Source of the DNA: Bryobacterales bacterium
GTDB lineage: Bacteria; Acidobacteriota; Terriglobia; Bryobacterales; Bryobacteraceae
DNA: 46,697 nucleotides
Assembly (NCBI GenBank): GCA_003167255.1
Contig: PMTR01000165.1
Coordinates: 1,168 to 47,864 of the forward strand
Direction of reading: 5' to 3'
Part shown: positions 5,538 through 44,791 of the stretch, piece by piece
Numbering within the stretch: the first letter of the stretch is position 1
Layout: the number at the start of each line of letters is the position of its first letter
The notes under the pieces: generated by a model
Databases searched by the model: none
What the model was told of the DNA's origin: nothing
Seen by the model: only the letters and a program-made list of their open reading frames with translations
Program-made: the position numbers and the translations under genes

Positions 5538-5635
5538 GTGGGGCAGGCGCTTTCGCCTGCCAACCGCCGCACTCGACCAGGAGAGTTTTCTACGGCAGAA
5601 CACCTGGAGTTGGCAGGCGAAAGCGCCGGCCCCAC
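5538..5635. repeat. 98-bp MITE-like element with 27-bp inverted ends
   Basis: The left end (5538-5564) and right end (5609-5635) are inverted copies differing at one base. Each starts GTGGGGC and holds an inner hairpin AGGCG-CTTT-CGCCT. There is no coding capacity. It follows directly on the stop codon of the upstream gene. The same arm recurs alone at 6861-6887 and, diverged, at 23695-23721. Confidence 0.8.
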
Positions 5636-6860: not shown

Positions 6861-6887
6861 GTTGGCAGGCGAAAGCGCCTGCCCCAC
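6861..6887. repeat. 27-bp solo arm of the GTGGGGC repeat
   Basis: The perfect hairpin GGCAGGCG-AAAG-CGCCTGCC followed by CCAC is the right arm of the element at 5538-5635. It lies between two convergent genes and could act as a bidirectional terminator hairpin, though it has no T-tract. Confidence 0.7.
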
Positions 6888-23103: not shown

Positions 23104-25560
23104 TTACGCTTTCTCACTGACGCGGCGCAGCAGGAAGCGGAAAAGCCCGGCGGCAACCACCGCCAACCCAGTGGCGGCGGCCAGCACCGCGGCGTAACCG
23201 AAACGGTCGAGGCAGCGGCCCGAGACAAACGACGCGAGGGCCTGGGCCGAGAAAAACACAAGCATATTCAGAGACGACGCCCCGCCACGCTCGCGCTCCG
23301 CGACATGGTTCATGAGCAGCGTGTTCATGCCGGGCTCGCTCATCCACTGGAAGGACATGTAGGCGATGAAGACCAGCGGCGCGAGGCCGGAAGGCTGTGC
23401 GGCCAGACCGCCGAGCGCGGCCGCGGCGGCCATCATCATCAGGGCGATGCCGGTCACCAGCCCAACCTTGCGAAACACCCATGGCGCCAGCAGCACGATG
23501 GCGGCCTGCGGCACCTGCGCCCGGGAGAAGATGGCGCCGATCTGGCCAGCGGAGTACCCCAGCCGGGCAAAATAGGCGTTGGCAAAGGGATTGAAGGCGC
23601 CAACGGCGGCGCTCCAGACCGCGAGCGATGCCAGGTAGCGCCGCAGGAAGGGGCCGCGCGGATAGATCCGCTCGCCTTCGGGCGCAGCGGGCGGGTTGAC
23701 AGACGAAAGCGTCTGTCCCACTTTGGCGCGCAAGGGCCCGCGTTTGAGCCGGGATGCGGGCACCAGCGCCAGGGTCACCATGGCGGCGGCCACCAGCAGC
23801 GCGATGCGCTTGCTGTGGACCAGGCGGGGCAATTGACCGCCGGCCCAGTACCCGGCGATCCCAAGCGCGAACATCACCGCGAAAAAAATACTGAAGGCCC
23901 GCGGCCTGCGTTTCTCTTCGACGGCGCCAGCGACGGCCGGCGCCATGATCACGGCCCAAACCGAAAAAACCGCACCAAACAGAAACGCCAGCGCGGCCAG
24001 CGGCAGCCGGGTGGAGGCCAGCGCACGCAGCGCCATCACGGTGGCGGCAGCGGCCAGCGTTCCGAGAACCGTGTTGCGCAATCCGAAGCGTCGCGCTACC
24101 AGGGCCGCGGGAAGAATGCCGGCGGCGCTGCCAATGGTGGACGCGGTAGCCACCAGGCCGAGTGAGTCTTCATGGAAGCCAAGATCCAACAGATACAGGT
24201 TGTAGAGCAGCGAGAAAATGAACAGGCCCAGGTTGAGAAGGACCGCGGCGGCGAGAAAAATCCAAAATTGTTTTCCCAGGCGATTGGTGCGCCACCACCA
24301 GCGGACACCGGAACTCGCCGTAGCAGGCAGAGCGACGGCGTGATGGCGCAGCCGCGACGCGACATGGGCGGCGTAGCGGACGCGCCCCAGGGCGCGACGC
24401 CGCCGGGAAATCTCACCAACCTGGTGAGCGGCGTCCACGGGGCTTGGCATGTTCCCGGGCAGGAGCCGTCGGCGGGCCACACGCCAGCCGTCGCGGCGGG
24501 AGCCGAGCAGGCTCAGGTGCAGCCAGAGCTCATCTTTGCGCGACTCAAACAGGCGCCGGGCCGGAGAGAGCGCGAACTCCTCAAACCAGGCCTGGGTGGA
24601 GGCCGGCAGTTGTTCGATTTCTTCCTGCGCCGCACCGGTCCGGCAGCCAAACCATTCCGCCGCGAAGCGGAAGACCACGGCTTGCAAGCGGCGCAACTCG
24701 GGAGAATGCAGCGCGCGCCATTCGACCCAGAAGACATCGTCGGCGGAGTGGGAATCCAGGAAGCAGGCCACTTCATAAGCGTGAAAGGGACGGCCGCTGC
24801 CGCGCAGAATGTGTTTGAGGTAGTGCAGCGACGCGAATCCGAGCGCGTCGGTAGGCGAGAGGCGCGGAAGATCGAGCTCCGTCGAGGGGACGCGCGCCAC
24901 CGTGCGGCGCTGCCAGAACTCCTCGACGCCCGGCGCGGGAAGGCCTTCCCGGACGCCGTTCCAGAACTGGAAATGGATCTCGATGGGCAGGGGCATTTCG
25001 GGATCGAAGAAATCGCCGCGGAAATCCCATCCGGTCTTGCGGATGAGCGCTGGGATGTGATCGGTGGGAAGGTGTTCGACGCCTTCGAGCGACTGGTAAC
25101 CGGCAGCCAGCAGGAGATCGCGCGCTGCGCCGATGGTTTCGCGCGGAATGAAGAGGTCCACGTCATATTGCGGCCGGTCCTCGGGCTGAGAGCCGAACAG
25201 AGGGCATTGGGTAAGACCCTTGAGGGCCACGAATTCGATGGCCTGGGCGGCTAATGTCTGGGCGAGCCAGCGATACAGCTCCACCAGCCTTTGCAAGCGC
25301 TCGCGGTTCTGCGAGAGATTGGTGTCGGTGACTTCGCGCACCCACTCCGGCATGGAATCGCGAGCGCGCCGGCGCAGGGCCAGCGTAATCTGCGACTTGT
25401 TCGAAAACAGCAGCGCCTGGCGCCAGTCGCGTTGGTCGAGCCGGGCGAGCGATTCCGGCTGCGCATCGCCCAGGTGCAGCGCCGCCAGCACCGCCGCGGG
25501 ACCGCGTGGAAGCCCGGGCGCATTCGGCCACGGATTGTGCAATCTAGTGTAGTGCGGCAT
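23104..25560 (-). CDS. Nucleotidyltransferase (NTP_transf_5-like) fused to an MFS transporter
   Basis: About 818 residues from the ATG at 25560; a longer TTG frame to 25599 would read into a repeat. Residues 1-~400 match the 'uncharacterised nucleotidyltransferase' family: IEFVALKGLTQCPLFG, RPQYDVDLFIPRE (D-V-D as metal site), PIEIHFQFWN and FASLHYLKHILRG. Residues ~430-818 form about 12 membrane helices of an MFS carrier. A cytoplasmic loop contains the nine codons VGQTLSSVN, which come from a palindromic repeat (23695-23721). NTP_transf_5 proteins are often near exopolysaccharide loci. The joint role is unknown, and fusion to a transporter is unusual. Confidence 0.75.
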   Translation of the reverse strand: MPHYTRLHNPWPNAPGLPRGPAAVLAALHLGDAQPESLARLDQRDWRQALLFSNKSQITLALRRRARDSMPEWVREVTDTNLSQNRERLQRLVELYRWLAQTLAAQAIEFVALKGLTQCPLFGSQPEDRPQYDVDLFIPRETIGAARDLLLAAGYQSLEGVEHLPTDHIPALIRKTGWDFRGDFFDPEMPLPIEIHFQFWNGVREGLPAPGVEEFWQRRTVARVPSTELDLPRLSPTDALGFASLHYLKHILRGSGRPFHAYEVACFLDSHSADDVFWVEWRALHSPELRRLQAVVFRFAAEWFGCRTGAAQEEIEQLPASTQAWFEEFALSPARRLFESRKDELWLHLSLLGSRRDGWRVARRRLLPGNMPSPVDAAHQVGEISRRRRALGRVRYAAHVASRLRHHAVALPATASSGVRWWWRTNRLGKQFWIFLAAAVLLNLGLFIFSLLYNLYLLDLGFHEDSLGLVATASTIGSAAGILPAALVARRFGLRNTVLGTLAAAATVMALRALASTRLPLAALAFLFGAVFSVWAVIMAPAVAGAVEEKRRPRAFSIFFAVMFALGIAGYWAGGQLPRLVHSKRIALLVAAAMVTLALVPASRLKRGPLRAKVGQTLSSVNPPAAPEGERIYPRGPFLRRYLASLAVWSAAVGAFNPFANAYFARLGYSAGQIGAIFSRAQVPQAAIVLLAPWVFRKVGLVTGIALMMMAAAAALGGLAAQPSGLAPLVFIAYMSFQWMSEPGMNTLLMNHVAERERGGASSLNMLVFFSAQALASFVSGRCLDRFGYAAVLAAATGLAVVAAGLFRFLLRRVSEKA
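23695..23721. repeat. Repeat arm inserted in frame in the MFS gene
   Basis: A 27-bp copy of the solo arm seen at 6861-6887 (hairpin GACAGACG-AAAG-CGTCTGTC, then CCAC). Its length is exactly nine codons and the reading frame is kept. Confidence 0.75.
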
Positions 25561-25586
25561 GCAGAACAACGAGTATGCATTTTGCC

Positions 25587-25706
25587 GTGGGGCAGCCAAT
25601 CCTGGCTGCCGCCGGCTTTCAGCCGGCGTTTACCGGTGCGACAACTTGCGCATCGGCGCGAAAGAGCCGCCTGAAAGGCGGCTGCGGGCAAGATTGCCCG
25701 CCCCAC
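25587..25706. repeat. 120-bp MITE-like palindromic element
   Basis: The ends are GTGGGGCAGCCAATCCTGGC and an inverted counterpart ending GCCCGCCCCAC. Inside are the hairpins GCCGGC-TTTCA-GCCGGC and GAGCCGCC-TGAAA-GGCGGC. It is the inverse-orientation partner of 44630-44748. It has no coding capacity. Confidence 0.8.
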
Positions 25707-25733
25707 AAGACCGGCAAGACTTCGGACGCAGAC

Positions 25734-25857
25734 CTAAACAAAACTACTTCGACGATTCCTCGGTCTTGACACGTAAAGACCCAGTCGCCGTTGCACTCCT
25801 AACTCCTAATCTAACTCCCAAATCCCGCAGGGATTTCAAGGGCGCAGCCCTCGGTTA
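25734..25857. repeat. Double-hairpin/heptamer repeat, copy 1
   Basis: Read on the minus strand, it begins with the TAA of the TonB receptor. Then come the hairpin GAGGGC-TGC-GCCCTT, the hairpin AAATCCC-TGC-GGGATTT, imperfect GAGTTAG-type heptamers, and a tail ending at TTTTGTTTAG. It is homologous to 31351-31496. The hairpins could terminate transcription. Confidence 0.75.
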
Positions 25858-28800
25858 GAAATCGTACCGCACAACGAACTGCATGCGGCGCGGCTGCCCG
25901 GTGGTGAGGATTCTGCCGAAGAAGGAGCCGAAATCGGGATTGTTTACGGGGATGCCCCAGTTCGGATGGTTGAACAAGTTGAAGCTCTCGGCGCGAAATT
26001 CGATGGTGTGGCCTTCATGCACGGCGAAGCGGCGGCTGATGGCGAGATCGAAGATGTTGTTGCCGGGGCCGATGATGGTGTCGCGGCCGGCGTTGCCGAA
26101 AGTGTAATGCGCGGGAGCGCTGAAGGCCGCGGTGTTGAAGAAGTGTTCGACGGTGCGCTGGCTGCGCGGCAGAGCAATGCTTTGGCCGGGCACGAGGTTG
26201 GGACGATTGGGCGTGCCGGAGTTGGCGTAATCGACGGCGAAGAAATAAGGATTCTCGGGCGTGCCATCCTGCAACGTGACGGTGCCGGAGAGCTGCCAGC
26301 GGCGCAGCAGCGGGCCGGCGATTCCCAATTCGGGCAGCCGCCAGACGTAGCCCCCGCTGATGCGGCGGCCCACGTTGAAGAACGAAAGGCCGCGCTCCAG
26401 GCGCAGGTTGCGTTCGTCCTGCGCGCCGACGCTATCGTAGAGCCCCGGAATTACGCTGTCGGAATCGTCCAGCGACTTGGCCCAAACGAAGCTGGCCAGC
26501 ACGGAGACGCGGCTCGAGAGGCTCTTCTCGACCTTCACCTGGAGCGATTCGTACGACGAGTTGGCAATGTGCTGGCGTTGGATGATGGGGCCGAGCGAGG
26601 GGAAGGATCGCAAGGACTGGAGATCGCCCGGACGCGGCGCGAGATCCTGGCCGAGTTCCACGTGCGCCGGGGTATTGTACTGGCGATAGCGCCCGAGGTG
26701 CGTGCCTTTGGAGCCGACGTAGGCCAACTCCAGGAGCACGCGCTTGGGAAGCTCGTGCTGGAGACTGGCGGTCCATTGTTGGACGTAAGGCGTGGGGACG
26801 TTGGGATCGACTCCGAAATAGCTGGGGAATCCGCTGACGGAGGTTTTGGCGAATCCGTTCTGAGTGGTGAGCACGGGGAGCTGGTTCCCTTGCGTCTCAT
26901 TGCTCACGTTGGAGAGGCCGTTGAGCAGCAGATCATAACTCTCCACGGCGATTTCCGGGCTGAAATAGACGCCATAGCCCGCGCGAAAAACCGTGAGGCC
27001 GCCGGGGATCGGCAACTTGGGAAGCTGCCAGGCGAGCCCCAGGCGCGGCGCGAAATTGAGGTGCTGCGGCAGGGTCCCGGACTTCACGCGGACCAGCAAA
27101 GGCGGTTTTGGCAGAGAGGAGTAATCCAGGTTCAGAAAGTTGTTGCGCGCTTCGGTGTAGGGCGAGGCGTAGCTATAGCGCACGCCGAAATTGAGAGTGA
27201 GCCGGGAATCGATTCGCCAATCGTCCTGCGCATAGGCGCCGGCGACATTCTGGCGCATATATGCCTGCCCGGAACCGGCGGTGCGATTGGTGTCCTGCGG
27301 GTAGCCGAGCAGGAAGTCCGCGAAGGGATTTCCCGAATTGGTGCCCAGGCCATCGACGCTGGTGAAGACGCCGCTATAAACATAGGTGCCGCGGGCGTTG
27401 TTGCTTTGGAGATAATTCAGTTGAGAGTGAATCCAATCGCCGCCGAACTTGAGGGTGTGCCGGCCGCGCACCAGGGACAAGCCGTTCGAAACCTGCCAGA
27501 GGTTGTCGCGTTGCACCTGCGGCAGCGTGGGCGAATCCGTGACGATGGAATAGTTGGTGACGTTGAAGTAGGGCAGGCCGAAATAGAACGGGTCGGTGGG
27601 CGGATCGGCCAGGCCGAGCTGCTGTTCCACGTTGGTCTTGAAGGCCGTCTCGGGAACGTCGTAGAGGCGCAGGCGGGTGAAGGCGGCGCGCGCCTCATTA
27701 ATCCAGGAGTTGCCGCTGGCGATATAAGCGACAGTGGCCTGCTGGGCGCGCACCTGCTCCGACAGAGGCAGCAGCGGAAACGAGCCGGCCACGGTGTTGC
27801 CTTCGCCATTGAAGGTGTAGCGTCCGTTCAGGACGCTGTGATTGGCGAACTGGTGGTCGATGCGCGCCGACGCACTATCGGTGTCGGTAACATTGGGAAC
27901 GGAATCCAGATAGTTGCCGCCGGCGCCGCTGCTATTAGGCAGGGGCTGATAGGTATTCAGAAAGGTGGTGGCGATTTTGTCGATCTGGTTTTGGGGAACA
28001 CGGTCCAGCGGGAAGGGCGTCCTGGTGCCTGCGGCGTTCAAGCTGAGGGGATCGTAAATCACCGAGCCGCCGCCGCTGAAATCGCCGTTGCGGGTGGCCT
28101 GGTCCGGCACCAGGCTGGAGCGCGAGCCACCCTGCTTCTGCCGGAAGCCTTCATAGCTGCCGTAAAAGAAGGTGTTCCTGAGGCCGGGGACGGGACCGCC
28201 CAGCGAAGCGCCGAACTGATTCTGCCGGAAGATGGCGCGCGGGAGGGCGGGGTTTTCGAAATAATTGTGGGCGTCGGCGGCTTCGTTTCCGAAATACTCG
28301 AAACCGCTGCCGTGGAACTGGCGGGTGCCGGATTTAGTGATGACGTCGATCGAGCCGCCGCCCGATTCGGGAAACTCGGCGTGCGCCAGCGAAGACTGAA
28401 TGCGGAATTCCTCCACCGAATCCATGGGCGGATAAACGGCGATGGCAAAGGTGTTGCGGTCGGTGTCGTATGCGCCGTCCAGGAGGAACGAATTCATGGT
28501 GGAGCGGCCGCCGTTGATGGGCGCGTTCAGACCGACGGAGCCGCGGCTGCCTTCCTGCACGTCGTTGTTGACGTCGTGCGTGAAGCCGCTGAGCTGCCGC
28601 GGGATGGCTCCGGGGCCGAGTGTGACCAGCGACACCACGTTACGCGAGGCCAGCGGAAGATCGGCGATCTTGGAGCGATCCAGCAGGTAGCCAACGGACG
28701 CGCCTTCGGTATCGACGGGGGAAACCACAGCGGTGACGGTAAGCCGGTCCTGGGAGGCTCCCACGGTGAGCCGGACGTCATGGCGGGCGCCCTGAGCAAG

Positions 28801-29073
28801 CTCAATGGCGACACTGGAGGCCTGGTATTCGCGGAAGCCCTGCTTGACGGCGGTGAGGGTGTAGACGCCGGGCGCCAGTTGATCGAAAACATAATCGCCA
28901 TGGGCATCGGTGGTGGTGGAGCGGACAAAGCCGGTAGCGGTTTGCGCCGCGGTGACGACGGCGCCCGCAACCACCGCCGAAGACTGGTCGCGCACGGTAC
29001 CAGCAAGACTGGAAGATGCCACCTGGGCCTGCGCCGCGGCGGCGGCGAGAAACGTGAGGAGCGCGAGTTTCAT
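25855..29073 (-). CDS. Oar-like TonB-dependent receptor with carboxypeptidase-regulatory domain
   Basis: 1072 residues. A signal peptide (MKLALLTFLAAAAAQAQ) is followed by a CarboxypepD_reg-like Ig domain (SLAGTVRDQSSAVVAGAVVT ... GDYVFDQLAPGVYTLTAVKQ, 24-82). A plug region follows (SGGGSIDVITKSGTRQFHG), then a large beta-barrel ending FVVRYDF with a C-terminal Phe, as outer-membrane proteins do. This type is greatly expanded in Acidobacteriota and is thought to import large or scarce substrates or serve in surface functions; the ligand is unknown. No TonB box was identified. The ATG overlaps the TGA of the HprK-like kinase upstream (ATGA). Confidence 0.85.
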   Translation of the reverse strand: MKLALLTFLAAAAAQAQVASSSLAGTVRDQSSAVVAGAVVTAAQTATGFVRSTTTDAHGDYVFDQLAPGVYTLTAVKQGFREYQASSVAIELAQGARHDVRLTVGASQDRLTVTAVVSPVDTEGASVGYLLDRSKIADLPLASRNVVSLVTLGPGAIPRQLSGFTHDVNNDVQEGSRGSVGLNAPINGGRSTMNSFLLDGAYDTDRNTFAIAVYPPMDSVEEFRIQSSLAHAEFPESGGGSIDVITKSGTRQFHGSGFEYFGNEAADAHNYFENPALPRAIFRQNQFGASLGGPVPGLRNTFFYGSYEGFRQKQGGSRSSLVPDQATRNGDFSGGGSVIYDPLSLNAAGTRTPFPLDRVPQNQIDKIATTFLNTYQPLPNSSGAGGNYLDSVPNVTDTDSASARIDHQFANHSVLNGRYTFNGEGNTVAGSFPLLPLSEQVRAQQATVAYIASGNSWINEARAAFTRLRLYDVPETAFKTNVEQQLGLADPPTDPFYFGLPYFNVTNYSIVTDSPTLPQVQRDNLWQVSNGLSLVRGRHTLKFGGDWIHSQLNYLQSNNARGTYVYSGVFTSVDGLGTNSGNPFADFLLGYPQDTNRTAGSGQAYMRQNVAGAYAQDDWRIDSRLTLNFGVRYSYASPYTEARNNFLNLDYSSLPKPPLLVRVKSGTLPQHLNFAPRLGLAWQLPKLPIPGGLTVFRAGYGVYFSPEIAVESYDLLLNGLSNVSNETQGNQLPVLTTQNGFAKTSVSGFPSYFGVDPNVPTPYVQQWTASLQHELPKRVLLELAYVGSKGTHLGRYRQYNTPAHVELGQDLAPRPGDLQSLRSFPSLGPIIQRQHIANSSYESLQVKVEKSLSSRVSVLASFVWAKSLDDSDSVIPGLYDSVGAQDERNLRLERGLSFFNVGRRISGGYVWRLPELGIAGPLLRRWQLSGTVTLQDGTPENPYFFAVDYANSGTPNRPNLVPGQSIALPRSQRTVEHFFNTAAFSAPAHYTFGNAGRDTIIGPGNNIFDLAISRRFAVHEGHTIEFRAESFNLFNHPNWGIPVNNPDFGSFFGRILTTGQPRRMQFVVRYDF

Positions 29074-30038
29074 AGGTTCGATAGAAGGGCGACAGCCTGG
29101 TCCAGGTTTTCGTAGGTCAAGCGGTAGGCCGGCACTTCCAGTAGCCTCCGCGCGGTTCTCTCATACATGGCGCGAACGTCATCGCCGTACCACGGCATAT
29201 CGCGAAGCAGCAGCTCGATGGCTTCAGCCGCTGGAACCGGTTTCGCGCTGGCTGGGACGCCGTCGCGGCGATCGAGAAGGATCACCGAACCCACCCGGCA
29301 GCGCGACGAGGTGCGAATGTGCGGAAACGCGTCGAGAGGAACCTCGAGGGAGATTTTCCCGTTGGGGCGCGCGAGAGAGATGTAATCCTGGAGTTCGGGA
29401 AAGAGGCGCGGCGCATCCTCGCGGAAACGGATGGAGCGGCAGCGGCCCAGCACGGTTCGGTCTTCGACGCCAGTCAGCAGCCACGTGCCATCGTCGGTGA
29501 CGTAGGTCCAGCCGGCGCGCGCGCAGGCCCACGCCAGCGTGCTCTTGCCCGCGCCGGATAAGCCGCACAGCAGCACACCGGTCTCGTCGCGCGCGACGCA
29601 GGCGGCGTGTACCGGCATCACCCACCGCTGCGCTAATAGCATGTGAGCCATGGCTTCCAAAAAATAAAAACGGAACCAGGCGTGATCGGCGACGGTTTTT
29701 TGGCTCACGAAGCAGCAACCGAAGAGGCTGCCGGATTCGTAGAAAGCGAAGTTGTCGCGGTCGGAGACAATCGAAAAGAGCCGCCGCTGGTTCCGGAAGA
29801 CGGGCTCGGGGGCCAAGCCGCCGGCGGGCTGAACCACCACCCGAAGCTCGACCGGCGGGTAGGGATATTCGGGCGCGTACCCGCCCCAGCTTGCGGCGGC
29901 GGCTTCCATCACGTCGCGCGAGTTGGTGGCGATTTCCACGCGGAAGCCGAGTGGGAAAAAAGACCCGGTGAGGGGAAGATCGATGCGGTGAAGCAGCGGG
30001 TCGTACGGAGCGGTTTCCAATGCTTTGGCTAGGCCCAC
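29070..30038 (-). CDS. HprK-like ATP-binding protein
   Basis: 322 residues. A P-loop GLSGAGKST (159-167) lies in the setting HAACVARDETGVLLCGLSGA and is followed by WTYVTDDGTWLL. This resembles HPr kinase/phosphorylase C-terminal domains, where the Asp pair after the P-loop is catalytic. The N-terminal ~140 residues are not HprK-like, and the C-terminal HprK signature is absent. Proteins of this class occur in lasso-peptide, exopolysaccharide and unrelated clusters. It is coupled by ATGA overlap to a TonB receptor gene, which is unusual and suggests joint expression. Substrate unknown. Confidence 0.7.
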   Translation of the reverse strand: MGLAKALETAPYDPLLHRIDLPLTGSFFPLGFRVEIATNSRDVMEAAAASWGGYAPEYPYPPVELRVVVQPAGGLAPEPVFRNQRRLFSIVSDRDNFAFYESGSLFGCCFVSQKTVADHAWFRFYFLEAMAHMLLAQRWVMPVHAACVARDETGVLLCGLSGAGKSTLAWACARAGWTYVTDDGTWLLTGVEDRTVLGRCRSIRFREDAPRLFPELQDYISLARPNGKISLEVPLDAFPHIRTSSRCRVGSVILLDRRDGVPASAKPVPAAEAIELLLRDMPWYGDDVRAMYERTARRLLEVPAYRLTYENLDQAVALLSNL

Positions 30039-30129
30039 AACACACTGATAACACGAGAATTAGCTTTACATGCGTAAAACTAGCGGCATTGCGCCGCGCG
30101 GTCCCTCGGCGGCCTGTAAGCTGGTGAGG

Positions 30130-31215
30130 ATGCGTGCGGCGATTGTGCACTACTGGTTGCTCAACCAGCGTGGCGGAGAGAAGGTGCTGGACGCGATCTG
30201 CCGCCTGCTGCCCGAAGCCGACATCTTCACGTTGTTCTGCGAACCCGATACGCTCAGCGCGGAGGTGCGTCGCCACCGGATCACGACCTCTTTTCTCAAC
30301 CCCTTGCGCCACTGGCACCGGTCGCTGCTGCCGCTGATGCCGATGGCGCTCGAAAGCTTCGACCTGCGGGGCTACGATCTGGTGGTGAGCAGCGAATCGG
30401 GGCCGGCCAAAGGAGTGATCACCTCCTCCGGCACGCGCCATCTGTGCTACTGCCACACGCCCATGCGGTATCTGTGGGATCTGTACCCGGCGTATCGGAA
30501 TGAGTGGACGCGGTCGCGCTGGAAGCGCGCGGCCATGACGCCGCTGAGCAGTTATCTGCGACAGTGGGATTTCTCGAGCGCGGCGCGGGTGGACCGCTTC
30601 ATCGCGAATAGCGAAAACGTGCGTGGGCGCATCTGGAAGACCTATCGGCGGGACGCCCAAGTAGTGCATCCGCCGGTGGACGTGGAGAGTTTCGCGTGGA
30701 AGCCGGCGGAGGATTATTTCCTGATTGTCTCCGAGTTGGTTCCCTATAAGCAGGTGGACACGGCGGTGGGGTTATTCGCAAAAACCGGGCGGCGGCTGAA
30801 GATCGCGGGCGGCGGGCCGGAACTGCGCCGGCTGCGCAAGATGGCGGCGCCCGGCGTGGAGTTTCTAGGGCGCGTCTCCGACGTCGAATTGCGCAATCTG
30901 TATGCGCGGTCGCGCGCGCTGCTGCTGCCGGGCGAAGAGGATTTCGGCATCACGGCGGTAGAAGCGCTGGCGAGCGGCAAGCCGGTGATCGCACTGGGGC
31001 GCGGCGGTGCGCTCGAAACGGTTCCTCCCTGCGGCGGCATTTTCTATGACGATGCGTCGGCAGAGGGCCTCGCTGAGGCGCTTCAGCGCTTCGAAAAGCT
31101 GGAGCCGCGGATGTGCCCCTCGGAATTGCAAGAGCATGCCCGGCGCTTTTCAGAGCCCGAGTTCACGCGGAAAATGGCGGCGGCCCTCGAGGAATTGCGG
31201 CTGGGAGGCCGTTAG
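30130..31215 (+). CDS. GT4-family glycosyltransferase
   Basis: 361 residues from the ATG at 30130, preceded by GGTGAGG; an in-frame ATG at 30070 would add 20 unlikely residues. It has MRAAIVHYWLLNQRGGEKVL, YDLVVSSESGPAKGV, CYCHTPMRYLWDLYP, FLIVSELVPYKQVDTAV, and GEEDFGITAVEALASGKPVI, with the E-x7-E nucleotide-sugar site (E-D-F-G-I-T-A-V-E). It matches the WbaZ-like mannosyl/rhamnosyltransferase type. It is divergent from the HprK-like gene, with 91 bases between starts. Exact sugars unknown. Confidence 0.85.
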   Translation: MRAAIVHYWLLNQRGGEKVLDAICRLLPEADIFTLFCEPDTLSAEVRRHRITTSFLNPLRHWHRSLLPLMPMALESFDLRGYDLVVSSESGPAKGVITSSGTRHLCYCHTPMRYLWDLYPAYRNEWTRSRWKRAAMTPLSSYLRQWDFSSAARVDRFIANSENVRGRIWKTYRRDAQVVHPPVDVESFAWKPAEDYFLIVSELVPYKQVDTAVGLFAKTGRRLKIAGGGPELRRLRKMAAPGVEFLGRVSDVELRNLYARSRALLLPGEEDFGITAVEALASGKPVIALGRGGALETVPPCGGIFYDDASAEGLAEALQRFEKLEPRMCPSELQEHARRFSEPEFTRKMAAALEELRLGGR

Positions 31216-31234
31216 CCCCGGACGAAAATGGCTT

Positions 31235-31310
31235 AGCCGCCGATGAACGCAGATTAACGCAGATTGAAAACCCAAAACTTATCCGCGTTCATCGGTGTTC
31301 ATCGGCGGCT
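31235..31310. repeat. Inverted repeat with 14-bp arms
   Basis: AGCCGCCGATGAAC (31235-31248) and GTTCATCGGCGGCT (31297-31310) are exact inverses. CAGATTAACGCAGATT lies between, and a second GCGTTCATCGG precedes the right arm. Intergenic, non-coding. Confidence 0.65.
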
Positions 31311-31350
31311 GAAATTGGGAGCTTGTCCGCTTTCCATTTGCCGGCCATTC

Positions 31351-31496
31351 CTAAACAAGACTACTTCAATAATTCCCCAGTCCGCGATGTGAAGACTCCG
31401 CCGCCGTTGCGCTTCTGACTTCTGACTTCTAGCTTCTAACTTCTGCCCCCCGACTTCCAAATCCCGCAGGGATTTCAAGGGCGAAGCCCTTGCTTA
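31351..31496. repeat. Double-hairpin/heptamer repeat, copy 2
   Basis: It is homologous to 25734-25857, and its minus strand begins with the TAA of glcF. Hairpins AAGGGC-TTCG-CCCTT and AAATCCC-TGC-GGGATTT come first. On the plus strand five heptamers of the form CTTCTGA/CTTCTAG/CTTCTAA lie at about 31410-31445. Confidence 0.75.
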
Positions 31497-32789
31497 GCCT
31501 TTGTAGGCTTCGTCCAGCAGTTCCACCACGTGCATCACGCGCTGGCGGTTGCCGTGCAGACGGACGCCGGCTTCGAGTTGCAGCATGCACCCGGGATTGG
31601 CGGTCGAGATGATGCCGGCGCCGGTCGCATTCACGGCTTCCATTTTGCTTGCGAGAATCTGCATGGACATCTGATTTTCAACCACGTTGTAGATACCGGC
31701 GCTGCCGCAGCAGATGTCGGCCGAGCGCATCTCGCGAAATTGCAATCCGGGAATGGCGGCGAGCAGCGTGCGGGGAGCGGTGCGGACGCGCTGTCCGTGC
31801 GCCAAGTGGCAGGAGTCCTGATATGTGACGATGCGATCGATCGGGGCCATCTCGCGGTTCAGCTCGATGGAGGCGAGGAACTCCGTCACGTCGCGCATCA
31901 ATGCGGAGAACTCGCGCGCCTTGGCGGCGTATGAGGGATCGTCATCCAGCAGGTCGCCATATTCTTTGAGCGTGGAACCGCATCCGGCGGCGTTGGTGAT
32001 GATGGCTTCAAAGCCGCCTCGCAGGACGGCGTCGATATTTTGGCGCGCCAGCCTGCGGGCATCTTCGCGCAGGCCGGAGTGCAGGTGAAGGGCGCCACAG
32101 CAGCCCTGCCCGGCGGGCACCACCACTTCGCAGCCGTTCTTCTGCAGCACGCGCACGGTGGCTTCGTTCAGGCGCGCGAAGGAAATGTTGGCAATGCACC
32201 CGGCGAGAAACGCGACGCGATGGCGGGTCGCGCCCTTCGCCGGGAAAGTGCTGCCGATCTGGCTGAAGAAAAACGGCGGTTCCGCGGATGGCGCCAGTTG
32301 CGCGAGATCGCCCAGAGTGCCGGCCAACCGGAGTGAGCCCACGACCCGCATCAGAGCTTTGAGGCCGCTCACCTGGTAGATATAGACCAGCGTGCCGGCC
32401 ACCGTCAGGGCGGTGCGGGATTCCAGCAGATGATTAAAAAAGAAGCGGCGGACGCGCTGCGCCATGCGGCCGCGTGGAACCCGGGCTTCGATTTCAGCCC
32501 GTGCCTCTTCCACCATTCTTCCGTAGCGCACACCGGAAGGACAGGCCGATTCGCAACCGCGGCAGGCGAGGCACAAGCCGATGTGCTGAATATAGGAAGA
32601 CGTAATGGGCGCGCCCTCGGCCACTTGCACCATCTGGTACACGCGGCCGCGCGGCGAATCCATCTCGAGGCCCAGCTCGCGGTAGGTGGGGCAGGCGTTG
32701 AGGCACAGACCGCAGTGGATGCAGCGGTCGAGATCGAACTGCCGGGGGCCCAGACGGGTTGTCTCAGATACGACGATAGAGTCGGCCAC
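31494..32789 (-). CDS. glcF: Glycolate oxidase iron-sulfur subunit
   Basis: 431 residues. Two ferredoxin-type 4Fe-4S motifs (CIHCGLCLNACP and CLACRGCESACP) precede two CCG domains (AGQGCCGALHLHSG and DICCGSAGIYN). This is the GlcF layout, carrying electrons from the FAD subunits that oxidise glycolate (or D-lactate) to the quinone pool. It starts with GTG at 32789 and overlaps glcE by 26 bases, so it is co-translated. The catalytic GlcD subunit is not in the window. The 3' end touches a repeat element. Confidence 0.85.
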   Translation of the reverse strand: MADSIVVSETTRLGPRQFDLDRCIHCGLCLNACPTYRELGLEMDSPRGRVYQMVQVAEGAPITSSYIQHIGLCLACRGCESACPSGVRYGRMVEEARAEIEARVPRGRMAQRVRRFFFNHLLESRTALTVAGTLVYIYQVSGLKALMRVVGSLRLAGTLGDLAQLAPSAEPPFFFSQIGSTFPAKGATRHRVAFLAGCIANISFARLNEATVRVLQKNGCEVVVPAGQGCCGALHLHSGLREDARRLARQNIDAVLRGGFEAIITNAAGCGSTLKEYGDLLDDDPSYAAKAREFSALMRDVTEFLASIELNREMAPIDRIVTYQDSCHLAHGQRVRTAPRTLLAAIPGLQFREMRSADICCGSAGIYNVVENQMSMQILASKMEAVNATGAGIISTANPGCMLQLEAGVRLHGNRQRVMHVVELLDEAYKG

Positions 32790-36018: not shown

Positions 36019-36582
36019 ATGACGGATTCTCGCGGTGAGGTCACCGCGCTCTTGGGAGAACTGAAGCTCGGGCGCAAGGATGCCCTGGAGCGGCTGATGC
36101 CGCTGGTTTACAGGGAGTTGCGCCGCGTGGCGGGCCGGTGCATGCGCGACGAGCGGCCCGGCCACACCCTCCAGCCCACCGCCCTGGTCCACGAGGCTTT
36201 CCTGCGGCTGGTGGGCCAGGACCACGCCGATTGGCAGAACCGCGCCCAGTTCGTGGGCGTGGCGGGCCAGCTCATGCGCCGCCTGCTGGTGGACCACGCC
36301 CGCGGGCGCCACGCTCTGAAACGCGGCATCCCCGTGACCCTGAACGAAGAGATATGCAATCGGGCCGCCGGCGCCGACCAAACCGAGGAAATCCTGGCGG
36401 TTGATGAAATCCTGGCCCGCTTGGCGGAGCTCGACCCGCAACAGGCCCGCATCGTCGAACTCCGCTATTTCGGCGGCCTATCGGTGGAGGAAACCGCCGA
36501 GGCCATGGCGATCTCGCCGCGCACCGTCAAGCGCGACTGGGCCATGGCCAAGGGCTGGATGAAGGGCCAATTGCAACGTTGA
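36019..36582 (+). CDS. ECF-type RNA polymerase sigma factor
   Basis: 187 residues, sigma-70 family of the acidobacterial ECF type (TIGR02999-like). Region 2 has RLMPLVYRELRRVAGRCMRD and LVHEAFLRLVGQ; region 4 has VELRYFGGLSVEETAEAMAI then SPRTVKRDWAMAKGWM. I chose the ATG at 36019; the frame stays open upstream, but that part is antisense to the peptidase. No anti-sigma factor adjoins. In these genomes such sigma genes usually sit next to a PD40 Ser/Thr kinase, as here, with a HicB-like gene in between. The kinase may control the sigma factor. Confidence 0.85.
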   Translation: MTDSRGEVTALLGELKLGRKDALERLMPLVYRELRRVAGRCMRDERPGHTLQPTALVHEAFLRLVGQDHADWQNRAQFVGVAGQLMRRLLVDHARGRHALKRGIPVTLNEEICNRAAGADQTEEILAVDEILARLAELDPQQARIVELRYFGGLSVEETAEAMAISPRTVKRDWAMAKGWMKGQLQR

Positions 36583-36610
36583 ACGCTATACTCAAGAAGG
36601 CAGGGCTGAA

Positions 36611-36832
36611 ATGAACGCGAGACGTTATCCGGTAGTCATCGAAGAGACGGGGACCGGCTACTCGGCTTACTCGCCGGACGTTTCCGGATGTGCGGCCGTT
36701 GGCGACACTGAGGAAGAGACGCGCCGGAATTTCCAGGATGCCCTGGGTGCGCATTTCCAGGCCATGCGCGAGGTGGGCGAGCCGATTCCGGAACCACACA
36801 CATCCGTCGATTACGTGGAAGTCGCCGCGTAG
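36611..36832 (+). CDS. HicB-like protein
   Basis: 73 residues, MNARRYPVVIEETGTGYSAY then SPDVSGCAAVGDTEEETRRN. This is the partial RNase-H fold of HicB antitoxins (Y-x-A-x-x-P-D-x-x-G-C). No C-terminal DNA-binding domain is present and no HicA toxin gene is nearby. It sits between the sigma and kinase genes in the same direction, 28 and 51 bases from each. It may be an orphan antitoxin or a domesticated regulator of this module. Confidence 0.75.
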   Translation: MNARRYPVVIEETGTGYSAYSPDVSGCAAVGDTEEETRRNFQDALGAHFQAMREVGEPIPEPHTSVDYVEVAA

Positions 36833-36883
36833 TCCCCGGCGGTATCATAGCTAAGAGCCGATGATCGCGCCAGAGAACCAGCG

Positions 36884-39700
36884 ATGACGCCGCAGCGTTG
36901 GGCCCGCATCAAGGAAATCTTCGGCGCCGCGTTCGAGCAGCCCGAAGGGAAGCGCGCCGCCTTCCTCGATACCGCCTGCTCGGGTGATGCCGAATTGCGT
37001 GCCGAAGTGGAGCGACTGCTGGCGGACGGCGACGGCGACAGCCTGCACAGTCCCGCCAGTGGGATCCTGAACGCGGCCTCTGAATTGGCGCCCGGCGACA
37101 CCGTGGCGCATTACCGCATCGAAGCCCGGCTGGGCGAAGGCGGCATGGGCGTGGTCTACAAGGCCAAGGACACCCGCCTGGGCCGCAACGTGGCCCTCAA
37201 ATTCATCAAGGCCAACTTCAGCCGCCATTGGGAGCGCGAGGCGCGGGCCGTGGCGGCGTTGAACCATCCCCACATCGCCACGCTCTACGAGGTCGGCCAG
37301 CACGAGGGTGTGCCCTACCTGGCCATGGAGTTGGTGCAGGGAAGTCCGCTCAAACGTCATCTGCCCGTAGCGGAGGCGGTAGCCTGCGGCATCCAAATCG
37401 CGGATGCCTTGGCCGCCGCGCATGCGGCGGGCATCGTGCACCGGGACCTCAAGCCCGGCAACATCCTGGTGACGAAGGCGGGCGTCAAACTGCTCGATTT
37501 CGGCGTGGCCCAGATGAGGCCGCGGCCGGGCGCCGACAGCGGCGCAAGTTCCATCCAAACCCTCACGGCATCGGGCGTGGTTGTCGGAACGCCGCAGTAC
37601 ATGGCCCCGGAGCAGATCGAGGGCAAACCGGTCGATACCCGCGCGGACATCTTCGCGTTCGGCGCGGTGTTTTACGAGATGCTGGCCGGCTGCCGGGCGT
37701 TTGCAGGGGAGAGCCAAGCCGGCGTGATGGCGGCCATCCTGGAACGGCAGCCGCCGGATTTGCCTGAGACGGTGCCGCCGGCGCTTCGGCAGCTCGTCGC
37801 CGGCTGCCTCGAGAAGGACCCGGCGGCGCGGTTTGAGTCGGCCCGCGATCTGGTGTTCGCGCTGCGTGCTCTTTCGGCGGGCTCCGGTCTCCGTACCGCC
37901 CTTCCAGGGGTCGGCCCGTCCGCCGGCGTGCCCGGAAGGGGTTGGCTCCTGCCGGCGCTGGCGGCGGCGGTGGTCGCACTGGCGGCGCTTTCGGCCGCTT
38001 TGTACCTCACGCGTCCCGAACCGCTCGATCTCTCGGCTTACAAGTTCACACCGGTCGCGACGGATGCCGAAGTTCAGGGAAGGGGCTCGTGGTCGCCGGA
38101 CGGGAAGAGCGTTGTGTACCTGAAGACCATGGACGCCGTGTGGCAGGTGATGGCTCGGAACCTGACTAACCCATCGCCCACGCAGCTAACCAGGCTCAAG
38201 GACGGCGCGTATCGCTCCATGCCGTTCTTTTCGCCGGATGGCGAGCGCGTGTACTTCATTGCCTCCGGGGCTCTGTGGTCCATCGCCGCAGTGGGCGGAG
38301 AGCCGCGGGAGGTGCTGAAGGCTCCGATGCAGGCCGCGGCGCTTTCGCCCGACGGGAAGACGCTGGCATTTTGGCAACGGTACGAAGAAGCCGGGACGCG
38401 ATACGCCACCGTGTGGATTTCATCGCCGCCCGGGGCCCCGCCGAGAAAGTACGAACCGGCGCCGTTCCGCGTGAACGTCGGCTACGACCCTGATTTCTTG
38501 CGCTTTTCGCCCGATGGCTCTCAAATCGGCCTGGCGACTTACCCGGGTGAGACGGGGCTGTGGATCCTGCCGTGGCCGGACGGGCCGAAGGCACGGCCTC
38601 GCCAGCCGTTCGCGATCCCTTCCTTTGGAGTTGGCTTCGACTGGATGCCGGACTCCCGCCACATGTGTCTCTTCTGGGGTGGCGGTCTTTCGCTTGGCGA
38701 CAGCCGCACGGGGAAACTCGAGCAGTTGACAGCGTCGACCAATGGACAGGCTTGGGAGCCCTCGGTTTCGCCCGAAGGGAAGCGGCTGTTGTGCACCGTC
38801 GAGGATGCGGACCACGACATTATTGAGCTTCCGCTGGACGGTTCCGCGTCGAGACCCGTGCTGGCGACGGCCATGGACGAATATTCACCGTCGTGGTCTG
38901 CCAGCGGCGACCAGATGGCCTTCATCACCAACCGCTCGGGTGAGTCCGCGATCTGGTTACGAAGCGCAAGCGGCGACTGGGAACGGCCCGCTGTTCGGCA
39001 AAGCGACTTCCCCAATGACCCGCATCAACCTTTCAACTCCGTCTCTTTGTCGCCGGACGGCAGGCGGCTCACTTTCCACCGGCACCAAAGGCTGTGGATA
39101 TCGCCGGTATCGGGTGGGCGCGGATCGCCGGCAGTGGTGGGGGGCGAGGGCGAAACTTCGGCGCCCTCATGGTCGCCCGACAGTTCCTCGATCACGTACA
39201 TCGGTCACAGCGGCGGTAAACCGTATGTGGCAGTGATGCGGGTCGGGAGCCAGCAACCGCAATTCCTGATCCCCGACACGGCAGGTTTGTGCCTTTCTGC
39301 CCCTGTCTGGTCGCCGGACGGACTTTGGATAGCCTGCGGCGCGAATGAAAAGACCGTGCTGCTGGTGTCGCCGGATGGAAAGCAGCGCCGCAGCTTGCAG
39401 AGCCCCGTGCCCGTGTCCAACGAGGGATTCGTTCTAGTCTGGTCGCGGAACGCGGACACGATCTATGTGGCTTCGTCGACGACCGCAAAGTCGAGACTGG
39501 ACGCAATCGATGTCCGGTTCGGAAGATCACGCAGTATTGCCGAATACCCGGGGCGGCTGATCTTTCATCAACAGATTTTTAATACGCTTTCTGGCAGCCT
39601 GTCGCACGATGGCAAGAGCTTCGCGACTACGGTCCGCAACGATAGAGCCAACTTGTGGATACTGGAGGGCTTTCCGCGATATCTGCGCCGCTGGTTCTGA
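36884..39700 (+). CDS. Ser/Thr protein kinase with PD40 beta-propeller, copy 1
   Basis: 938 residues. An N-terminal helical region (MTPQRWARIKEIFGAAFEQP) is shared with copy 2. The kinase domain (~77-330) has LGEGGMGVVYKAKD, VALKF (K106), VHRDLKPGNIL (D188) and LLDFGVA (205-207), followed by MAPEQ. Eight or so residues usual after K106 are missing. A membrane helix lies at about 350-370. An extracytoplasmic PD40/WD40-like propeller follows with many SPDG repeats. It probably senses an extracytoplasmic signal and phosphorylates cytoplasmic targets, perhaps the sigma factor two genes upstream. Confidence 0.88.
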   Translation: MTPQRWARIKEIFGAAFEQPEGKRAAFLDTACSGDAELRAEVERLLADGDGDSLHSPASGILNAASELAPGDTVAHYRIEARLGEGGMGVVYKAKDTRLGRNVALKFIKANFSRHWEREARAVAALNHPHIATLYEVGQHEGVPYLAMELVQGSPLKRHLPVAEAVACGIQIADALAAAHAAGIVHRDLKPGNILVTKAGVKLLDFGVAQMRPRPGADSGASSIQTLTASGVVVGTPQYMAPEQIEGKPVDTRADIFAFGAVFYEMLAGCRAFAGESQAGVMAAILERQPPDLPETVPPALRQLVAGCLEKDPAARFESARDLVFALRALSAGSGLRTALPGVGPSAGVPGRGWLLPALAAAVVALAALSAALYLTRPEPLDLSAYKFTPVATDAEVQGRGSWSPDGKSVVYLKTMDAVWQVMARNLTNPSPTQLTRLKDGAYRSMPFFSPDGERVYFIASGALWSIAAVGGEPREVLKAPMQAAALSPDGKTLAFWQRYEEAGTRYATVWISSPPGAPPRKYEPAPFRVNVGYDPDFLRFSPDGSQIGLATYPGETGLWILPWPDGPKARPRQPFAIPSFGVGFDWMPDSRHMCLFWGGGLSLGDSRTGKLEQLTASTNGQAWEPSVSPEGKRLLCTVEDADHDIIELPLDGSASRPVLATAMDEYSPSWSASGDQMAFITNRSGESAIWLRSASGDWERPAVRQSDFPNDPHQPFNSVSLSPDGRRLTFHRHQRLWISPVSGGRGSPAVVGGEGETSAPSWSPDSSSITYIGHSGGKPYVAVMRVGSQQPQFLIPDTAGLCLSAPVWSPDGLWIACGANEKTVLLVSPDGKQRRSLQSPVPVSNEGFVLVWSRNADTIYVASSTTAKSRLDAIDVRFGRSRSIAEYPGRLIFHQQIFNTLSGSLSHDGKSFATTVRNDRANLWILEGFPRYLRRWF

Positions 39701-39934: not shown

Positions 39935-39970
39935 CTTGCCATCATTACCGGGTACGTCCCGGGAACCTAG
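39935..39970 (+). pseudogene. C-terminal fragment of a DUF4258 gene
   Basis: Reads LAIITGYVPGT then stop. It matches LAIITAYVPET in the DUF4258 gene at 40249-40569. Only 12 codons are left. Confidence 0.5.
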
Positions 39971-39975
39971 TGATT

Positions 39976-40087
39976 GCAATGCTATCATTGCTGTATGGCC
40001 AGCATCACGATTCGCAAGCTGGATGATGCGGGAATTTCGGGGGAATTTCGGGGACGGGCTACGAAATTCCCGGACCCAAGCGGCTGA
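39976..40087 (+). pseudogene. Truncated FitA-like antitoxin gene with its operator
   Basis: The palindrome GCAATG-CTAT-CATTGC (39976-39991) and the following ATG (39995) with MASITIRKLDDA are nearly identical to 43933-43990. After 12 codons the sequence changes into a repeat (GISGEFRGRATKF...) and stops at 40087. It is a 5' duplicate of the antitoxin downstream. Confidence 0.75.
40030..40071. repeat. Direct plus inverted repeat, REP-like
   Basis: GGGAATTTCGG occurs twice in tandem (40030-40040, 40041-40051), and CGAAATTCCC at 40062-40071 inverts it with GGGACGGGCTA in the loop. The composition recalls IS200/RAYT-associated ends, but no transposase is present. It is the likely cause of the antitoxin truncation. 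Confidence 0.5.
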
Positions 40088-40918: not shown

Positions 40919-40978
40919 AAGCGCGACTGGGCCATGGCCAAGGGCTGGATGAAGGGCCAGTTGGAGACGCGGCCATGA
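40919..40978 (+). pseudogene. 3' remnant of an ECF sigma-factor gene
   Basis: Encodes KRDWAMAKGWMKGQLETRP and stops. It is nearly identical to the end of the sigma factor at 36019-36582 (KRDWAMAKGWMKGQLQR). Its TGA overlaps the kinase ATG (ATGA), the usual sigma-kinase coupling. The rest of the sigma gene has been replaced by other fragments. Confidence 0.8.
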
Positions 40979-43916: not shown

Positions 43917-43948
43917 TTCGGTCTTTGTGCTTGCAATGCTATCATTGC
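43917..43948 (+). promoter_or_regulatory. Antitoxin promoter and operator palindrome
   Basis: The perfect palindrome GCAATG-CTAT-CATTGC (43933-43948) ends three bases before the FitA-like ATG. It contains the extended -10 TGCTATCAT (TATCAT at 43940-43945). A weak -35 (TTCGGT) is at 43917-43922. Transcription would start at about the ATG, so the message may be leaderless. FitAB/VapBC complexes are known to bind such palindromes. A second copy lies at 39976-39991. Confidence 0.6.
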
Positions 43949-43951
43949 TGT

Positions 43952-44200
43952 ATGGCCAGCATCACGATTCGCAAGTTGGATGACGCAGTGAAGTCGCGGT
44001 TGCGCATCCGTGCAGCCCGCCACGGCCGCTCCATGGAAGAAGAGGCGCGGGAAATCCTCAAGGTTGCGGTGACAAAGAAAGCATCACAAACGCTGAATCT
44101 GGCGGAATCGATCCGCCGGCATATCGTCCCGCTCGGGGGCGTGGATCTCGCCCTTCCTTCACGCCAAGCAGTCCGGCGGCCTCCCGCACTCACCAGATGA
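43952..44200 (+). CDS. FitA/VapB-like ribbon-helix-helix antitoxin
   Basis: 82 residues, MASITIRKLDDAVKSRLRIR then AARHGRSMEEEAREIL. This is the Arc/MetJ-type ribbon-helix-helix of FitA-like 'plasmid stability' antitoxins; the C-terminal part would block the toxin. The start is the ATG at 43952; a longer GTG frame from 43925 runs through the operator. It overlaps the toxin start by four bases. It probably represses its own promoter with the toxin. Confidence 0.85.
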   Translation: MASITIRKLDDAVKSRLRIRAARHGRSMEEEAREILKVAVTKKASQTLNLAESIRRHIVPLGGVDLALPSRQAVRRPPALTR

Positions 44201-44616: not shown

Positions 44617-44629
44617 GGTGAGTCTCTTT

Positions 44630-44748
44630 GTGGGGCGGGCAATCCTGCCCGCAGCCGCCTTTTAGGCGGCTTTTTCGCGCGGTGCGCGAGTCTTTGGAGC
44701 CGCAGTCGCCGGCTGAAAGCCGGCGGCAGCCAGGATTGGCTGCCCCAC
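44630..44748. repeat. 119-bp MITE-like palindromic element
   Basis: Ends GTGGGGCGGGCAATCCTGCC and, inverted, GTGGGGCAGCCAATCCTGGC. Inside are the hairpins GCCGCC-TTTTA-GGCGGC and GCCGGC-TGAAA-GCCGGC. CTTT on the left and AAAG on the right extend the symmetry. It is homologous to 25587-25706 in the opposite orientation. Confidence 0.8.
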
Positions 44749-44791
44749 AAAGCGGCGGAGCCGCAACCAATGATGAGATAACGCCAAGCGT

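Follow-up and report, generated by a model that had tools for sequence, protein, structure and literature searches.

In a 46,697-nucleotide stretch of DNA from a Bryobacterales bacterium (contig PMTR01000165.1 of assembly GCA_003167255.1; hereafter the window), two copies of a short double-hairpin repeat lie on the minus strand directly behind two unrelated genes. The initial annotation had named these genes TonB receptor and glcF, and the domains we checked are those of a TonB-receptor-like outer-membrane protein and a glcF-like iron–sulphur protein. As that annotation had also stated, each copy opens with the TAA of the gene upstream (25857-25855 and 31496-31494), and the number of heptamers in the two copies is unequal. 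Both read in the same order: CTAA, one base, hairpin 1, hairpin 2, imperfect heptamers and a conserved tail (Table 1). Hairpin 2 has the same sequence in both, a match number equalled by 0 of 100 shuffles. The two perfect hairpins originally described hold for the glcF copy; in the TonB copy, hairpin 1 contains one G–T wobble. The double hairpins fold better than shuffled sequences (z of −2.8 and −3.4), as does the whole TonB copy (z −2.4), whereas the whole glcF copy folds no better than its shuffles (z −0.09). The tail is likewise present as described, with a right edge that had been set too short: conservation of the glcF copy continues for about 14 nt, to about 31337, and the 3′ extension that begins there with GAATGGCCGGCAAA ends in GAATCTAR in complete copies (CTAR being CTAA or CTAG). 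CTAAGCAAG and CTTGTTTAG pair with each other in the predicted fold of the glcF copy, and related ends occur in 11 tail-bearing copies; the presumed mobile unit runs 21 nt further, to CTAR. Our BLAST query joined copy 1 by its head only, so that the likeness of its tail was judged by eye.

Table 1. Features of the two repeat copies in the window (copy 1, behind the TonB receptor gene; copy 2, behind glcF).
Feature	Positions	Strand	Basis or remark
Copy 1, CTAA foot	25855..25858	-	TAA ends the TonB-dependent receptor-like gene (25855-29073)
Copy 1, hairpin 1, CGAGGGC-TGC-GCCCTTG, one G-T wobble	25837..25853	-	Sequence, fold, family covariation
Copy 1, hairpin 2, AAATCCC-TGC-GGGATTT	25820..25836	-	Window comparison, fold, covariation
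Copy 1, degenerate heptamers, GAGTTAG type	25795..25819	-	Sequence
Copy 1, conserved tail, up to TTGTTTAG	25734..25794	-	By-eye comparison
308-nt stretch (copy 1 and a block of other repetitive extragenic palindromes)	25548..25855	-	Missing from the orthologous site in both G001 and G002
Copy 2, CTAA foot	31494..31497	-	TAA ends the glcF-like gene (31494-32789)
Copy 2, hairpin 1, CAAGGGC-TTC-GCCCTTG	31476..31492	-	Sequence, fold, covariation
Copy 2, hairpin 2, AAATCCC-TGC-GGGATTT	31459..31475	-	Window comparison, fold, covariation
Copy 2, heptamers, GAAGTCA/GAAGTTA type	31413..31458	-	Sequence
Copy 2, conserved tail, up to CTTGTTTAG	31351..31412	-	Sequence, BLAST, tail comparison
Copy 2, continuation GAATGGCCGGCAAA, start of the conserved 3′ extension, truncated here	31337..31350	-	

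The repeat is dispersed through the genome to which the window belongs (G000; a draft of 200 contigs and 7.35 Mb, 98.85% complete). A covariance model built from 32 copies gave 123 matches there, from which we retained 56 strong copies (E ≤ 4.4e-9); eight weaker matches were inspected and left out of all counts, and 7 of the 56 copies lie less than 300 nt from the end of the fetched stretch. A complete element measures about 130-155 nt, and its heptamers are rich in purines. None of the 56 heads, taken as 60 nt, shares more than 25 nt with a predicted gene, as befits a dispersed, high-copy, extragenic palindrome. Both hairpins are real, as judged by covariation. Within G000, the stems show a compensatory swap of AAATCCC/GGGATTT to ATATCCC/GGGATAT and a G–C to U–A change. 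Among 81 distinct heads from ten relatives, 95.9% of cells pair, six pairs are altered on both sides (equalled by 2 of 500 shuffles), and double changes over the two hairpins occupy 53 cells against 16 expected (0 of 500 shuffles), in an alignment fitted to the structure, which favours pairing. The signal vanishes when the partner column is slid by one to three positions.

The placement of these copies relative to stop codons is far above chance. A same-strand upstream gene is present for 44 of the 56 copies, as called by our own dicodon predictor, which was trained on the same loci and whose stop calls are firmer than its starts. The unit stands directly behind the stop of that gene (one base, then stem 1) in 19/56 copies and 0-5 nt behind it in 32/56, 30 of these 32 following genes with a good coding score; in a further 5/56 copies, and in 11/82 copies from relatives, a TGA within stem 1 itself serves as the stop. 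If copies were spread uniformly over gaps that lack the element, the most lenient of our null models, the expected share would be 11% for copies directly behind a stop and 17.6% for those within 5 nt, compared with 34% (p 5.1e-6) and 57% (p 3.5e-11) observed, where the P-values assume that copies are independent. A null uniform over bases gives 0.35% and 1.7%. Between co-directional genes, 26 copies read with their neighbours and 6 against them (p 5e-4); the remaining copies lie between convergent genes (13), between divergent genes (3) or without a neighbour call (8). The base before an abutted stop is C in 14/19 copies, as against 122/380 genes.

Such a distribution might arise if insertion were blind to stops and copies survived only in tiny gaps, which begin at stops in a compact genome. 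Co-directional gaps without the element are indeed short, with medians of 19 and 41 nt, and other repetitive extragenic palindromes (REPs) have been reported near the 3′ ends of open reading frames (ORFs; PMC3733652). However, the null that spreads copies evenly over gaps falls well below the counts given above, the orientation skew of 26 to 6 is left unexplained, and sequences exposed to the same filter carry no such bias: the first perfect hairpin after the stop in other gaps lies within 5 nt in 0/51 cases (within 10 nt in 3/51), and the resident REP GGCAGGCG..CGCCTGCC lies within 5 nt of a same-strand stop in 0/20 cases, the nearest at 6 nt. Survival restricted to gaps accounts for part of the placement; as the whole explanation we consider blind insertion possible and rather unlikely.

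The element also brings stops of its own. CTAR forms the four bases before the unit in 15/56 copies of G000 and in 29/82 copies from relatives, an enrichment over a background of 246 among 87,762 intergenic 4-mers (0.28%); by type, the feet in G000 comprise CTAG in eight copies, CTAA in seven, CTGA in three and GTAG in one, and CTAR precedes 11 of the 19 copies directly behind stops. Reading into CTAR-N-CAAGGGC, one frame meets TAA or TAG at once, a second meets TGA after 18 nt and the third is open; with its foot and its stem-1 TGA the element can therefore provide stops for two of the three frames. Part of the coincidence with stops is thus element-supplied, which tempers the earlier suggestion of insertion targeted to gene ends; what stands of that suggestion is the 32/56 copies against 0/51 and 0/20 in the controls, together with insertion at native stops at some of the empty sites described below. 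The right end of complete copies tends to CTAR too: the tail is one of several types, two of which, GAATCTAR and AACGGSAACTAR, end in it. The right-end motifs detected here are no further than about 290 nt from the head. CTAACTAG or AACTAG frequently stands to the left of the unit in five relatives (G030, G073, G013, G002 and G021), and many of these copies are far from predicted stops.

Comparison with the congener G001 (and with G002) drew on two targeted searches or on 0.55 Mb of fetched contigs; in one of the comparisons only matches of ≥84% identity were kept, and its one-flank matches C22, C47, C195 and C134 were not counted as empty sites, and at glcF and C57 the upstream flank alone is comparable in G001. 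Among the eight copies with both flanks comparable, seven are absent from G001 (the TonB copy, C75:51140, C75:55666, C76, C45:57492, C107:141 and C16:74384), a pattern of presence and absence that points to mobility. The C11 copy is common to both genomes, with hairpins partly decayed in G001, and the C57 copy is also shared, with mismatches in hairpin 1 of G001. At the TonB site, G001 reads TTC TAG TTGCACAATCC and G002 TTT TAG C TTGCCC, where G000 has TTC TAA, a 308-nt stretch and CTAG A TTGCAC. By this comparison the TonB copy evidently arrived as part of a 308-nt insertion placed precisely at the native TAG; in place of the native CTAG there is now CTAA at the left junction and CTAG at the right one. 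The TTG after the TAG is in frame with the downstream ORF, which makes an ancestral gap of 0-1 nt probable; any tolerated insertion would then touch the stop, and the site illustrates how confinement to gaps contributes to the placement. The same codon is affected at C16:74384, where GTG TAG in G001 corresponds to GTC TAA plus the insert in G000.

At some other sites the element appears to have closed the frame itself. At C107:141, GAG TAA has become GAA CAA GGG CTG CGC CCT TGA, which makes the protein five residues longer; at C76 the stem TGA closes the frame 14 codons earlier than in G001; at C75:51140 the TGA is retained. Behind glcF, identity with G001 ends at GGCT, and G001 continues for seven codons (WVAPRTS) into a convergent ABC gene; since the orthologue runs on for these codons without a stop at this point, the glcF TAA came with the element or with the breakpoint. 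At C45:57492 the unit, about 147 nt long and bounded by CTAA and CTAT, lies between divergent genes; it is absent from G001, where the native tetranucleotide is CTCG. At this site and at glcF, the left CTAR appears to have come with the element and not from the target. Recombination between copies as the origin of the glcF rearrangement is unproven, the best match to the ABC gene of G001 among the fetched loci of the 56 G000 copies being 72% over 98 nt. A simple target-site-duplication model is not borne out by C45:57492, nor by the unequal left and right feet. One site differs from the others compared: near bases 141-200 of C107 (L079), 39 nt of the gene end are directly duplicated on either side of the copy. 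The 308-nt stretch missing from G001 and G002 also holds a compound REP block (25587-25708), which recurs inverted at 44628-44748, the two being 94% and 84% alike.

A stop-adjacent hairpin could instead be kept because it is useful as RNA, either by delaying the ribosome at termination or through protection or processing of the mRNA 3′ end. The covariation of the hairpins is consistent with this, as is the gene end at which copies in two genera (C175 in G000 and C344 in G061) have heads with differing yet paired stems, and earlier work cited in PMC12306157 reports ribosome stalling at E. coli REPs located no more than 15 nt from a stop. However, such a function would be dispensable, because seven of eight comparable copies are missing in the congener, and hairpin 1 is mismatched in the C57 copy of G001. 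We therefore think selection for an RNA function an unlikely cause of the placement; any effect on how the upstream gene is translated or how its mRNA decays would be secondary.

Selection as an intrinsic terminator, which the initial annotation had offered as an alternative, we regard as very improbable. Hairpins that contain GC at gene ends, in sense direction, could be read in this way, and the 13/56 copies between convergent genes would suit it. No T-run follows either hairpin in the window copies, though, and none of the four terminator-like matches in 25500-31700 (5.8 expected in shuffles) falls within the element; with neither a T-run nor a consensus match, the terminator reading was dropped. 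In addition, a hairpin 1 nt past the stop would be covered by the terminating ribosome, and 26/56 copies read along with co-directional neighbours, 14 of them with the next predicted start ≤100 nt from the 60-nt head.

On balance we think it probable, if only just, that we are dealing with a REP-like, non-autonomous mobile element of Acidobacteriota that lands at the ends of genes or next to them and is able to terminate the reading frame by its own sequence. On insertion, the hairpin end would face the upstream gene. At a native stop the element could land in register, so that the stop codon is kept or rebuilt; where it lands a few codons inside the gene, or where the stop is destroyed, its own end would close the frame with TAA/TAG or the stem-1 TGA, except in the third, open frame. 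Beyond mere survival at such places, insertion itself may prefer TAR or stop-like targets, and such a preference would explain the register, the orientation and the C before abutted stops. An insertion aimed at stops would allow near-costless spread through dense bacterial genomes, by landing between genes and restoring the stop. It would help to explain the clustering of REP-like sequences at ORF 3′ ends, in a setting where target choice can be separated from survival by test, and would account for small C-terminal changes between orthologues such as the codons lost in glcF (7) and C76 (14) and those gained at C107:141 (5).

Relatives were surveyed with the same model, which, under stricter filters, finds the head in 26 of 101 genomes of the family, G000 included; there are 38 matches in G061 and 27 in G030. 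Our counts refer to 82 listed copies fetched from ten relatives, 29 of which lie 0-5 nt behind a same-strand stop. The bias recurs in another genus, G061 (15/32), and in G033 (5/8), with small numbers in the others apart from G030 and G073, discussed below. Exact pattern matches in a named genome collection all have acidobacterial titles (38/38): 13 are Bryobacterales, Bryobacteraceae or Solibacter, 12 are labelled 'gp2', 10 belong to one Acidobacteriia bin and 3 are others. One gene end has a head in two genera (L094, G000 C175:15801; L191, G061 C344:12426), where either an old common copy has persisted or one site has been struck twice.

Several observations weigh against an element that inserts at gene ends. 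Copies do not lie at random relative to genes in G000; in part they do in G030 and G073, where CTAG is common and yet only 3/20 and 2/8 copies have a stop within 5 nt. The bias is therefore strict in some genomes and loose in others. The foot is not a full explanation, since CTAR is found in only 12/32 near-stop copies of G000 and 5/15 of G061, and a strict CTAR-target model does not account for the other 20/32 and 10/15. Some copies are old, because those at C11 and C57 are shared with G001, and at C76 and C75:51140 the G001 sequence is slightly head-like and could be a decayed older copy. The empty sites compared show no constant target-site duplication: a possible TGGGGA repeat occurs once, and one copy has the 39-nt duplication instead. 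Finally, the hairpin model (R1) has no match in 45 loci with Y1 transposases (16 in G000 and 29 in six relatives, covering up to about 1.5 kb on each side), and G013 has two heads yet no Y1 match.

As to the agent of movement, the absence of heads from the 45 Y1 loci speaks against linkage to RAYT/IS200 transposases, as do the other palindromes beside the best Y1 genes of G000. These two genes (L119 and L120; G000:C45:50513 and C75:17348) encode Y1 transposases with a YIAAQQ motif and have their own, differing double palindromes alongside. The fetched locus of a gene with a class-3-like motif (G002, L318) contains no head copy. In the fetched loci, no full-length, transposase-bearing relative with the same ends was found up to 3 kb downstream of 138 copies (at least 2.4 kb for 121 of the 138). 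Because the foot-plus-hairpin layout resembles TnpA-REP/IS200 substrates (PMC6006769), our guess is that an HUH enzyme acting in trans, on a folded single strand, might move the element.

The heptamers extend beyond this double hairpin (head A). An unrelated second double hairpin, head B (GCGCCnnnGGCGCC-AACATCGAC..GTCGATGTT), carries the same heptamers. Its pattern gave 28 matches, of which we examined 11 (ten with ≤2 mismatches, and C82:12180); the other 17, with three mismatches, were taken as mostly chance, a control pattern giving four, and one of them is the reverse strand of a counted copy. Eight of the 11 abut a stop, two with an overlap of one base, and all eight stops are TAG; with one at 6 nt included, TAG accounts for 9/9, as against 108/380 background genes. 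Arrays of heptamers are frequent, with 217 pattern matches against 0 for the control. From among the matches listed we selected 19 loci without head A, in which 10 of 23 array rows start ≤16 nt from a same-strand stop and several arrays form inverted pairs that fill the intergenic gap. Heads and tails look like interchangeable modules around the heptamers. We tentatively raise the idea, less probable than its alternatives taken together, that heads A and B and the headless arrays with shared heptamers form one class of stop-codon-homing repeats, which a candidate recombinase or transposase would insert in register with TAR stops; the host gene would then retain its frame and its stop after insertion.

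The window holds further repeats. A REP-like palindrome family of the GTGGGGCAGGCG..CGCCTGCCAAC type occurs at 5538-5635, 6861-6887, 25683-25712 and 44725-44754, and its control pattern lies within 5 nt of a stop in 0/20 cases. Another dispersed repeat with inverted arms, of the GATGAACGCGGATTAACGC type, occupies 31235-31310; it recurs elsewhere in G000 and several times in G001. Gene segments are tandemly duplicated at 36529-37703 and 40919-41815 and at 39970-40042 and 43927-43999 (72-98% alike); their spacing is about 4.1-4.4 kb, the second pair being 3957 nt apart.

In the literature we recognised no description of this repeat. Rfam returns three matches in 25000-32500, all far below gathering scores, which sets aside a known RNA family, and the available part of the Solibacter genome paper reports many short repeats and names no such element (PMC3174227). 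Solibacter usitatus, of the same phylum, is described as having about 600 copies of class 3 TnpA-Y1 associated structures, whose foot is reported as CnGA (PMC6006769); these too are dispersed, atypical secondary structures, unlike the present repeat in their foot, as CTGA precedes just 3/56 copies here. IS200/IS605 elements have subterminal hairpins and two tetranucleotides, a conserved one by the left hairpin and another resembling it at the right end (PMC6006769). Our element shares this layout with their miniature forms and differs in that the fetched loci hold no autonomous copy and that its left CTAR seems element-borne, not target-derived.

Tandem heptamers between genes are a further point of likeness to known repeats. 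The STRRs of cyanobacteria are tandem heptamers between genes. So are the TAACTGA repeats of Beggiatoaceae, most sets of which in the Guaymas genome point at nearby start codons (PMC4679880), whereas the heptamer here is GAAGTCA and is placed after stops. Another parallel is with the GTAG REPs, which are described as short, high-copy, extragenic palindromes whose GTAG termini often give flanking ORFs a TAG stop and which, when convergent, lie mostly <20 bp from ORF 3′ ends in the two genomes shown (PMC3733652). Like GTAG REP/RAYT systems, the present repeat is a short, high-copy, extragenic palindrome with a conserved foot 5′ of the hairpin, near ORF 3′ ends; unlike them, it has CTAR as its commonest foot (GTAG in 1/56), two serial hairpins, heptamers, tails and no head beside the 45 Y1 loci. 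Without a GTAG foot and without an adjacent Y1 transposase, it therefore falls outside the named REP families. E. coli REPs that slow termination share with the present element a hairpin within 15 nt of the stop; in the study concerned this applies to only 446 of 4,072 REPs (PMC12306157), while here 32/56 copies lie within 5 nt of it.

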